Below, one piece after another: positions 32,196-54,852 of a DNA stretch of 64,000 nucleotides. Positions within the stretch are counted from its first letter, which is position 1. The number at the start of each line of letters is the position of its first letter. The notes below the pieces were generated by a model. The model saw only the letters and a program-made list of their open reading frames with translations, did not search any database and was not told where the DNA came from. Source of the DNA: Armatimonadota bacterium (lineage in GTDB: Bacteria; Armatimonadota; Fimbriimonadia; Fimbriimonadales; Fimbriimonadaceae); the NCBI GenBank assembly GCA_016125185.1, contig WGMG01000006.1, positions 620,001 through 684,000 on the forward strand. The letters are read 5' to 3'. The position numbers were made by a program, and so were the translations under genes.

Positions 32196-34223
32196 ATGTT
32201 GAAGAGAATGAGTTATACCGAAAACGATAAAACTGTGTCTCGGGCAGTTGTATCGCTACCAAGTAATAGAGTTGGTGAAGGGAAGCCCAACCCTCAAAAA
32301 TCGATTGAACAGATATCTGAGGAGGCAAAGACCTTGAATATGTCCTGCACTGTATGCGGCGAAGTGGTCGCGTTGCAGGTTCCTATTGCGTTCGGCCAGC
32401 TCTTATGCACCTGCGGAGGCGAACTTGATCCCGTCAGTTGGCCCAAAAAACAAGATGCAAAGATCGAAAATATGGAACTGCGACAATATGAAGCAGTTCC
32501 CATAAACCACCTTCTTATGAGGCGGCTGATTGCTTGTTGCTACCGCAAACCGGCGTTCGCACAGGTAGTAATCAACCACTTTAGGCGCGACTGGGATCAT
32601 GCTCGAAACCAGGAATGGGGAATTGACTGCGAGCTACTAGTCGCCCACGCTTCTCAGGCTATAGTAATGAAAGGACACCGTTCAGTCTGGCCCTATTTTG
32701 TGATTTTGGTAGCCAGTCTGACCTTCTTCGTGTCTCCACTAGTCTACGCAATTCTTTGCTTGCCGCTTCTGATACTTGCTGTTTGGATGGCAGCAGGCAA
32801 TACGTCGAACGAGCAGCACTGGAAGAACTACTGTCGCTCTGATTCGTACGACCCCAGCAAGATTCTCCTAGAGAATAAGGAACGTGTGAACAAACTGCGC
32901 TCGTACTGTGATGGGTCCCAGCAAAAGAATCTGCTTTTTTTTGGTGGCTATCATCCATTTGCCTTGCTAGGGGAAGAAGATTCGGGATGGAGTCAAATGG
33001 TCGACAGGAGAAAGAGGTCAGATGGTGAGCAATCCCAGGAAGCAGCGGATCTAAATATCGATAGCACTGAGGAAAAGATTGTTCAGAGCATCACCGATGC
33101 GCTCGTAACATCTTCGGCTCGAAACGAACATCGACTTGGTAAGTTTGTTGCATCGCGACTGTCCGTCGATGAAATCGTGCTCACTAGTGGTCTGGGATTG
33201 AGGCACGAAGCGAGCCAATTTCTCGATAAAGGTTCTCCGAAGCAAGCTCTCTCCGTTGAGGAAGTCGAGCAGACTAAGTCCGAGTCAAACTCCACATCGC
33301 GAGTATATAAGAGGGTTTCCTACTATGATCCCGTAAGAGATTTAGGTGTAATGACTTTCTTTCGTTTGGCCCACGTTGGTCCATTTACCTACCTGGAGTC
33401 CTCAGGAACAAAGTTGTTGCCCGTAGTTGACAAGTTCTTGGGAATCTACTCGGATGAACCAACATCTCAAGAGTTAGAAGTTGATGGGCGTGGTCCTTCC
33501 TGGTGGCAAGCGCTATCAACAAGTCAAAAAGAGAAGGTGGCCGCCCTCATTATTGCCCTGGTCTTTTTTCACTTAGGGTCTGCGTGTGGGGTTGCCTTGG
33601 CTGGAGCTATGACGAGTCTTGACTTGAGTCAGCTTTTGAGTCAAGCTGAGACCTCAAAAGAAGACACATTCCTGCCGTTATTAGCAATAGTCGCAATGTC
33701 TTGGTTACCGGTCCTCATCCAAGTCTTTGCACACCATGGATTCATGCCAAAAGTGACCGATGAATTCAGCGAGAAAGAGCCGTCGGTATTCGAAATGGTA
33801 ATGTCGCTTGGCTTAGCTATGATCCACTATGCTCCGGAGGTAAAACGCCTTGAGCTAAGACGAAAAGTGAGAATTCTGAAGACGACCGGTGAGTGGAATT
33901 ATAGTCCTACAAAGATTGCATTTAGGGTGTGGCAAAGCAGGAAGTATTCTCGAAATGAGTTTGAGGCCACTGATCTCCTCATGCTTCGCAAAGTCAACGA
34001 TGTAGCAATCCAGGAGGGTTTTAAGGATTGCCTTGAATCGGCAGGTATCGATACGACTTCCTTTGACGAAGGAGCCGCAATCGTGAATAACTTCGGAATA
34101 ATCAACCAAAGCGGATCAATTAGCGGTGGAGCCATTGTAAGAAATGAGAAGCCAGCGAAAGCAAAGCCCAGCAAGAAAAAGGGTGCAGTAGTACTGGCAG
34201 CCCCAACGCCAACTGCAGAGTGA
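32196..34223 (+). CDS. Large membrane protein with zinc ribbon and C-terminal Gly/Ser-rich beta motif, function unknown
   Basis: 675 residues, no family I can name. Seen in order: a possible zinc ribbon with Cys51-x2-Cys54 and Cys71-x-Cys73; a hydrophobic hairpin at 165-199; a soluble central part with L-L-F-F-G-G-Y-H-P-F (246-255) and W-S-Q-M-V-D (265-270), and Y-D-P-V-R-D-L (377-383); two more membrane helices at 446-471 and 492-511; a charged helical domain to about 615; then N-N-F-G-I-I-N-Q-S-G-S-I-S-G-G-A-I-V-R-N (631-650) and a Lys/Pro tail. The G-Y-x-P-F ... W-S-x-x-V-D element recalls large unnamed actinobacterial membrane proteins, from memory only. The gene is AT-richer than its surroundings. 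The next gene, 4 bases on, repeats the terminal motif. ATG at 32196 or 32208. Confidence 0.75.
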   Translation: MLKRMSYTENDKTVSRAVVSLPSNRVGEGKPNPQKSIEQISEEAKTLNMSCTVCGEVVALQVPIAFGQLLCTCGGELDPVSWPKKQDAKIENMELRQYEAVPINHLLMRRLIACCYRKPAFAQVVINHFRRDWDHARNQEWGIDCELLVAHASQAIVMKGHRSVWPYFVILVASLTFFVSPLVYAILCLPLLILAVWMAAGNTSNEQHWKNYCRSDSYDPSKILLENKERVNKLRSYCDGSQQKNLLFFGGYHPFALLGEEDSGWSQMVDRRKRSDGEQSQEAADLNIDSTEEKIVQSITDALVTSSARNEHRLGKFVASRLSVDEIVLTSGLGLRHEASQFLDKGSPKQALSVEEVEQTKSESNSTSRVYKRVSYYDPVRDLGVMTFFRLAHVGPFTYLESSGTKLLPVVDKFLGIYSDEPTSQELEVDGRGPSWWQALSTSQKEKVAALIIALVFFHLGSACGVALAGAMTSLDLSQLLSQAETSKEDTFLPLLAIVAMSWLPVLIQVFAHHGFMPKVTDEFSEKEPSVFEMVMSLGLAMIHYAPEVKRLELRRKVRILKTTGEWNYSPTKIAFRVWQSRKYSRNEFEATDLLMLRKVNDVAIQEGFKDCLESAGIDTTSFDEGAAIVNNFGIINQSGSISGGAIVRNEKPAKAKPSKKKGAVVLAAPTPTAE

Positions 34224-34227
34224 GACA

Positions 34228-34575
34228 ATGAGAGTAAACGAAAATAAAGGTGTCATTAACTATAAAGGAACCATCTCCGGCGGTATCCACGTTCAAAACG
34301 TTTCTGCTGAGCATTCTTCAAGTAACGAAGAAGCAATTGACCTAAAGCAATTGGCCGAAGAGATCAAACAACTGAGACGGAGTGCACGTCTTGAGGCCTC
34401 AGAAGTAGAACATGACCACGCCGTTGCAGAATTGGCGTCTGCGGAGAAGGCAACAAGAGAAGGGGACGCTCCTACGGCCCTGGGACACTTGAAGAACGCT
34501 GGGCAGTGGGCTCTGGAGGTTGCAGAGAAAATCGGAGTTCCCTTAGTTCTGGAGGTGCTGAAGAAGAGTATTTAA
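34228..34575 (+). CDS. Small partner protein sharing the terminal motif of the upstream gene
   Basis: 115 residues. The N-terminus (residues 5-24) has N-x-G-x-I-N-x-x-G-x-I-S-G-G-x-x-V-x-N, 11 of 20 positions identical to residues 631-650 of the upstream protein. The rest is helical: a charged segment (about 34-65) and an amphipathic end (G-Q-W-A-L-E-V-A-E-K-I-G-V-P-L-V-L-E-V-L). Four bases separate it from the upstream stop, so the two are surely one transcript. The shared motif suggests the two proteins pair or co-assemble. Function unknown. Confidence 0.75.
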   Translation: MRVNENKGVINYKGTISGGIHVQNVSAEHSSSNEEAIDLKQLAEEIKQLRRSARLEASEVEHDHAVAELASAEKATREGDAPTALGHLKNAGQWALEVAEKIGVPLVLEVLKKSI

Positions 34576-34870: not shown

Positions 34871-34945
34871 TGGTGGGCGATGAGGGGCTCGAACCCCCAA
34901 CCCTCTCGGTGTAAACGAGATGCTCTACCATTGAGCTAATCGCCC
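34871..34945 (-). tRNA. tRNA-Val (anticodon TAC)
   Basis: Full cloverleaf on the minus strand: acceptor GGGCGAT / ATCGCCC, D stem GCTC/GAGC, anticodon stem TCTCG/CGAGA with loop TTTACAC (anticodon TAC), five-base variable loop and T arm GGGGG-TTCGAGC-CCCTC with one G-U pair. Discriminator A; CCA is encoded (34873-34871). Confidence 0.97.
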
Positions 34946-54237: not shown

Positions 54238-54453
54238 CTCTTACCCGTCCCTGACGTTACCGCCATCCCTTCGTATTTTTGGCAGGTCTTAGGCAATATT
54301 TTACGGCTTTACACGGCGAGGTATGTAAAAGAATGACTAAATTCACGCAAATTCCTAGACGAAATGACATAATGAACCTGGTTATCTATGACGACTGCGG
54401 CTTAAAAAGCCTGAACGACCTAGCCGTTCGGGCATCAGAAGAAATATCGTTTT

Positions 54454-54852
54454 GTGCGCGTTCCCGCGCCTGTCTTCTGTTACAAGCCAACTCCCTTGAA
54501 AGAAAAACTGAATCAACCGTTTCGTTGTCGCAACTGTGGACAAATGGTCTTTCCCGAAAATGCCGGAAGTCGGCATCGGAACCATTGCCCCCTATGTCTT
54601 TGTAGCCGTCACCTAGATTCGTCGCCCGGCGACCGAGAGGAAAGCTGTGGCTCGGTCATGGAGCCGATCGCCGTTTGGGTCCGAAAGGGCGGCGAGTGGG
54701 CTTTGATCCACCGATGCCGCGGGTGTGGGGCGATCCGCTCGAACCGAATCGCCGCCGACGATAACCCGGCGTTGCTGATTTCTATTGCCGCAAAGGCGCT
54801 TGCCAACCCTCCGTTTCCGCTGGACCGAACATTATGCGTGGAGAGCGAATGA
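54454..54852 (+). CDS. RNHCP domain protein
   Basis: Up to 132 residues. Zinc-binding: F-R-C-R-N-C-G, S-R-H-R-N-H-C-P-L-C-L-C-S-R-H (the RNHCP motif), then D-R-E-E-S-C-G and H-R-C-R-G-C-G. The family is small and of unknown role. GTG at 54454 is one start; TTG at 54496 just before the first zinc motif fits too. The 216 bases before it show no gene. Confidence 0.8.
   Translation: MRVPAPVFCYKPTPLKEKLNQPFRCRNCGQMVFPENAGSRHRNHCPLCLCSRHLDSSPGDREESCGSVMEPIAVWVRKGGEWALIHRCRGCGAIRSNRIAADDNPALLISIAAKALANPPFPLDRTLCVESE

Follow-up and report, generated by a model that had tools for sequence, protein, structure and literature searches.

The stretch of DNA analysed here, a window of 64,000 nucleotides, carries two adjacent genes whose products bear a matched Gly/Asn-rich motif at their facing ends. 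Comparison with related loci gives good support for a two-gene module that recurs, has spread horizontally and is linked by a motif matched within, and specific to, each cassette. The gene pair is conserved, the motif is matched within each cassette, the remainder of the partner protein is exchangeable, and the cassette has spread horizontally. As to function, we lean slightly towards the two genes forming a signalling pair that would operate by amyloid-type templating without an NLR.

The two genes are arranged head to tail, with 4 bases separating the TGA of the first from the ATG of the second. The positions, sizes (675 and 115 residues) and spacing given in the first-pass annotation were all borne out by the list of open reading frames. 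The features of the locus are the following, in window positions:

32196 to 34223, plus strand: gene of the large protein, an open reading frame of 675 amino acids with relatives in 43 other loci; model pLDDT 61.5 overall.
32346 to 32414, plus strand: candidate zinc ribbon, Cys51, 54, 71 and 73, from the sequence; relatives have CxxC..CxxC or an FHA domain at the same end.
32628 to 32837, plus strand: predicted pair of membrane helices, residues 145–214; model helices 145–177 and 181–214, hydropathy peak 178–196.
32928 to 33425, plus strand: conserved, predicted cytosolic α/β core, residues 245–410, from invariant residues and models.
33519 to 33734, plus strand: second hydrophobic region, residues 442–513, with peaks at 448–466 and 492–510; an insertion in the alignment.
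33957 to 34040, plus strand: long conserved C-terminal helix preceding the motif, residues 588–615, from the model (pLDDT 87–97) and the alignment.
34089 to 34145, plus strand: C-terminal motif of the large protein, NFGIINQSGSISGGAIVRN, residues 632–650; low model confidence, probably disordered alone.
34228 to 34575, plus strand: gene of the small partner, an open reading frame of 115 amino acids.
34243 to 34299, plus strand: N-terminal motif of the small protein, NKGVINYKGTISGGIHVQN, residues 6–24, matching that of the large protein.
34330 to 34575, plus strand: helical module of the small protein, of the LKxAGxWxLxVAxKIG type; some larger proteins elsewhere have it too, following motifs of a similar kind.
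34871 to 34945, minus strand: tRNA-Val (tac), adjoining an amidase gene across the genus, with variable DNA on its 3' side.

The shared motif is present, with limits that differ slightly from those first proposed (631–650 and 5–24, 11 of 20 positions). Ungapped local alignment pairs N632 to N650 of the large protein with N6 to N24 of the small one, with 11 identities over 19 columns. The score of 55 compares with 21.4 ± 3.9 for shuffled C-termini of the large protein, and was reached by none of 200 shuffles. When residues 1–33 of the small protein were searched against the 4.5 Mb genome in six frames (E ≤ 10), the sole non-self match was the C-terminus of the large protein. The match is thus genuine and not due to chance. 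The same codon is used at 2 of the 11 identical residues. In the structure model, the C-terminal tail of the large protein, motif included, has low pLDDT and appears disordered.

Together with the window, loci encoding a related large protein number 44, from Actinomycetota, Cyanobacteria and a second genome of this phylum. The last of these (L002), a remote relative, has an equal layout: a membrane protein ending with NHGVIVSGGNINAKNVAAG is followed, after 6 bases, by a 128-residue protein starting with NSGVIAATINATNIATG. Used as a query against plasmids, this relative reached Streptomyces and Nonomuraea. The resulting alignment was then scanned over 84,980 genomes, yielding 39 further loci, mainly from actinomycetes, with three from cyanobacteria. 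An intact partner is encoded directly downstream in 36 of the 44 loci, its N-terminus matching the C-terminus of its own large protein; the distance between the genes ranges from −23 to 133 bases and is usually below 60. The partner was taken as the best-scoring downstream open reading frame, which brings a mild selection bias; second-best candidates score 15–30. At two loci (L023 and L047) the partner can still be recognised and one gene of the pair is frameshifted, the large gene is broken at L025, and the contig edge is reached at L033. At L026, L039 and L049 the large protein is intact and no motif-bearing partner was found nearby. The window's large protein had no tblastn match in plasmids and phages, and scans of viral contigs with both window proteins found no relatives.

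The motif is not merely conserved but matched within each cassette, since crossed pairs score far lower than own pairs. For the 14 cassettes sharing less than 45% core identity, the motif score was 65.1 for own pairs versus 28.2 for crossed pairs, the latter near the 21–28 obtained with shuffled sequences. None of 100,000 permutations of these cassettes reached the observed sum of 912, the best giving 729. Control regions elsewhere in both proteins score about 21 and show no match. In the Nonomuraea cassette L010, GSNFGNAPGSNFG occurs with small changes in both proteins; in cassette L035, NYGPINTGSGTQDNRGMT faces NQGPINTGSGTQDNRNMT; in cassette L037, GGGNQIGG is common to both. The matched, cassette-specific motif found in 36 of the 44 loci supports the view of the first-pass annotation that the pair is a module coupled through the motif, and shows that this two-gene module is recurrent.

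Motif similarity also tracks overall relatedness (r of 0.94 with the core). After relatedness was removed, a modest partial correlation of 0.36 was obtained over 36 cassettes, which none of 2000 permutations reached; the value for the 14 non-redundant cassettes (0.11) is uninformative. Over 507 identical motif residues, codon usage predicts 266 shared codons, and 299 were observed. Because this agreement is barely above expectation, the match is maintained at the protein level without recent copying of DNA, and a motif that was recently duplicated or converted at the DNA level was ruled out. Over the 36 pairs, motif length averages 26 residues and identity 56%. Asn (6.2-fold), Gly (2.4-fold), Ile (2.0-fold) and Ser (1.9-fold) are enriched, whereas Leu (nearly absent), aromatics and most charged residues are depleted. 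This composition fits that of known amyloid signalling motifs.

The non-motif half of the partner is exchangeable and the motif is the constant part. In many partners from actinobacteria the helical half matches DUF5955 (PF19380), as it does in 11 of 23 aligned proteins. The small protein of the window differs: it has no Pfam match to DUF5955, and profile comparison detected no homology between its helical module and the DUF5955-like actinobacterial modules. The partner at L037 (7935–8900) combines the motif with an enzyme of the PNP_UDP_1 phosphorylase superfamily (E = 2e-13). In Fischerella (L027, 7500–8380), a motif N-terminus behind the large gene is out of frame with a CHAT domain (E = 5e-11), which suggests a motif-CHAT partner gene that has been disrupted. 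Matches of partner proteins to EAD2 and VMAP-M2 are weak. As PNP_UDP, CHAT and TIR are domains already tied to amyloid signalling motifs in fungi or bacteria, the small slot would serve as output, with the membrane protein as sensor.

Larger proteins ending with a Gly/Asn motif and the LKxAGxW module were also seen (L012, 4053–5330; L013, 4461–5318; L004, 6–752; L005, 33–1475). Among larger proteins with this module, that of Hymenobacter has a weak TIR-like N-terminus (E = 0.066), and that of Azospirillum sits amid IS5 transposase fragments. A 203-residue cyanobacterial partner (L024, 7498–8109) has a further run of GDI-type repeats (GGDIGAFASGDITGVAGKNITGAAGRDISG), a second one, placed between its motif and the helical module.

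The large-protein family spans 470–830 residues. Its N-terminus varies, with a zinc ribbon in some members, an FHA domain in Nonomuraea L010 (E = 7e-14) and nothing in others. In the window protein, the four cysteines form a CxxC..CxC set near the N-terminus. They had been read as a possible zinc ribbon, which is plausible because several relatives have CxxC..CxxC ribbons at the same end; Pfam makes no such call in the window protein. The three hydrophobic regions previously noted were reproduced by a Kyte-Doolittle scan. The relatives have hydrophobic segments at the place matching residues 145–214, whereas the region 442–513 of the window member is mostly missing from actinobacterial relatives. 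The core carries the signature N-x-x-x-(Y/F)-G-G-x-x-P-F-x-G-x-G-x-W-S, and the invariant residues of the alignment include W265, R369 and Y371.

The pLDDT of the model is 85–95 across most of the core. A likeness to helix-grip/StARkin or KA1 folds was found with two separate models, one of the whole window protein and one of the cytosolic domain of L026. Z-scores reached 6.9 and 7.9, which is below the safe level, with helix-grip or KA1 folds making up most of the matches, and the best Foldseek E-value was 0.0085. With Z below 8 and E of at least 0.0085, the helix-grip/StARkin likeness of the modelled core gives a weak hint of a ligand-binding sensor domain. Neither window protein had a match above threshold in Pfam, NCBIfam, PADLOC or PDB sequences; the best PADLOC hit, to Csx3 (E = 0.03 over 20 residues), is not credible.

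The composition of the cassette sets it apart from the rest of the window. The GC content of the two genes is 0.479 and 0.483, against a window mean of 0.574 (s.d. 0.024), and their GC3 is 0.493 and 0.466, against 0.694 (s.d. 0.071), about three s.d. below the window's genes. The pair is therefore AT-richer than its surroundings, as had been remarked. The only other listed open reading frame of at least 100 residues that is as AT-rich lies at 54279–54605 (108 residues, GC 0.459, GC3 0.459). Among 291 genomes from the phylum, 2 encode the large protein; it is absent from the other 19 of the genus.

The cassette does lie on the 3' side of the tRNA-Val, which is on the minus strand. This tRNA gene stands beside the same amidase gene in 10 of 11 loci scanned across the genus. 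In the nearest congener (L073, G084:C41:160500-167500), its 3' side carries a tyrosine integrase, Replic_Relax and a TraG/TrwB-like protein, apparently an integrative mobilizable element. Within the genus the tRNA-Val thus serves for integration, since the nearest relative has an integrase element at its 3' side. Horizontal acquisition of the cassette, as first suggested, is well supported by its patchy distribution in the phylum, its AT-richness and the integrase element at the same tRNA-Val in a close relative.

Integration of the cassette at the tRNA-Val by a recombinase of its own found no support. A search of the 64,000-nucleotide window for att-like repeats of the tRNA end gave none, and no integrase lies between the cassette and the tRNA-Val. 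A location inside an integrated element with its own recombinase was ruled out on these grounds. The objections to a module anticipated by the first-pass annotation do not arise: the partner is usually present, no housekeeping family was found for either protein, and the composition differs from that of the surroundings.

A role in conflict or defence had also been put forward, and found no backing in PADLOC or in a recurrent defence family among the neighbours. Among 73 neighbouring open reading frames from 14 loci, no family recurs except zinc ribbons, which were found in 3 and are thus the most frequent neighbour family. One of the zinc-ribbon proteins, a membrane protein, is encoded behind a Streptomyces cassette (L009, 7825–8535). 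We infer that cell-suicide defence may be the role of the cassette.

In the mechanism that we propose, the large protein would be a membrane-sited sensor or scaffold whose N-terminal module varies and whose cytosolic domain is conserved. Its flexible C-terminal end would expose a motif of about 20 residues, and the small protein would present the cognate N-terminal motif, followed by an output or adaptor module. Upon a trigger and clustering of the large protein, the motifs would assemble a β-arch template of the amyloid-signalling type. By physical contact, this template would recruit and polymerise the partner's motif, and the partner would thereby be activated. Counting against this mechanism are the three loci with no partner found (L026, L039, L049), the reversed polarity of the motifs and the absence of recurrent defence neighbours.

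The matter of polarity bears on the first alternative, in which the roles are opposite: the small protein would be the sensor or adaptor, and the large protein a membrane-opening or membrane-damaging effector once its C-terminal motif is templated. In published pairs, the receptor motif is N-terminal, the effector motif is C-terminal, and the effector acts on the membrane (PMC7889193). Relative to these, the polarity is reversed in the cassette if the proposed roles are correct, and agrees if they are exchanged. The enzyme domains (PNP, CHAT) in the small slot of some cassettes and the sensor-type variable N-termini of the large protein speak for the proposed assignment, so that the opposite one is judged unlikely, if still to be reckoned with.

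Slightly less probable is a non-amyloid dock, by β-solenoid or strand exchange, that would hold the two proteins in a permanent complex without a switch, such as a membrane enzyme or a transport assembly. The motif statistics show matching, not amyloid; the genes lie close together or overlap, as would suit proteins that assemble together, and the core weakly resembles the helix-grip/StARkin lipid-binding folds. The disordered Asn/Gly-rich ends, the divergence between cassettes and the swaps to PNP and CHAT fit signalling better than they fit a fixed subunit. A toxin-antitoxin or immunity pair, with the large protein as a membrane-damaging toxin inhibited by the small one through the motif in a mobile addiction or defence module, would suit a patchy, AT-rich two-gene unit beside an integration-prone tRNA and the tight co-occurrence of the large protein and its partner, but is quite improbable given proteins of 470–830 residues with a zinc ribbon, FHA and cytosolic domain, unlike known small membrane toxins, three relatives that keep the large protein without a partner, and a partner slot taken over by PNP or CHAT domains in some cassettes, which fits an output and not an antidote.

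With templated signalling as the preferred reading, the cassette family would be a minimal two-gene test case for a question raised in a review, whether bacterial signalling amyloids act in NLR-independent pathways (PMC7889193). A bolder proposition, which we put forward tentatively and to which we do not quite commit, is that of widespread NLR-free amyloid-type signalling in bacteria, in which a membrane sensor, possibly lipid-sensing through its helix-grip domain, would template a cassette-specific β motif onto swappable outputs in the cytosol (helical modules, PNP_UDP, CHAT), with inverted polarity. Dozens of naturally diverged cognate motif pairs make the specificity of own over crossed pairs directly measurable. 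The proposed function would offer a first hint for the DUF5955-like proteins, and likewise for a membrane-protein family of many actinomycetes that is unannotated. The literature searched, with most subscription papers outside it, contained no mention of DUF5955 or of a function for it.

The first-pass annotation took the system to be undescribed. No earlier description of the pair, or of non-NLR bacterial amyloid signalling, was found in the literature searched, which leaves most subscription papers outside. In the strict sense the term is not borne out, because wiring by short matched β motifs on adjacent genes is known from fungal and bacterial NLR amyloid signalosomes (PMC7889193, PMC8086366). 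Published amyloid signalling motifs have a similar composition and likewise sit where the products of neighbouring genes face each other (PMC8086366, PMC9815663, PMC12261475). Their known partner domains include PNP_UDP effectors in the fungal systems and CHAT and TIR domains in the bacterial ones (PMC9815663, PMC7889193).

In fungi, NWD2/HET-S and the PNP_UDP/NLR (PUASM) pairs (PMC9815663, PMC3321046) likewise consist of two neighbouring genes with a short matched motif, and PNP_UDP is among the partner domains. The cassette differs from these in being bacterial, without an NLR and without a recognised HeLo domain, and its motif is not evidently alignable by eye to that of HET-s. Bacterial effector-associated and death-like adaptor domains (PMC8195603) are also homotypic modules linking sensors to TIR or caspase-like effectors; they are folded, whereas the element of the cassette is a short, disordered-looking motif.

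The bacterial NLR/Bell signalosomes with BASS motifs were considered as they are presented in later papers (Dyrka et al. 2020, through PMC7889193 and PMC8086366). In these accounts, the N-terminal motif is on an NLR (NB-ARC or NACHT), whereas that of the cassette is on a 115-residue helical protein without an ATPase domain. No NACHT match was found in the window, and the five in the genome lie elsewhere, none with the cassette motif. The C-terminal motif is on a Bell domain in the systems so described, and in the cassette on a 675-residue membrane protein with no domain of that kind recognised by the Pfam models searched. As far as these accounts go, the likeness is otherwise close: adjacent genes, facing termini, and a matched Gly/Asn-rich motif of 20–40 residues that differs between families. 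The cassette shares with BASS systems the arrangement in which a motif ending one protein matches a motif that begins the product of the adjacent gene. CHAT is among the partners on both sides, and the BASS hosts, multicellular actinomycetes and cyanobacteria in the same accounts, are also those of the cassette, which include filamentous actinomycetes and filamentous cyanobacteria.
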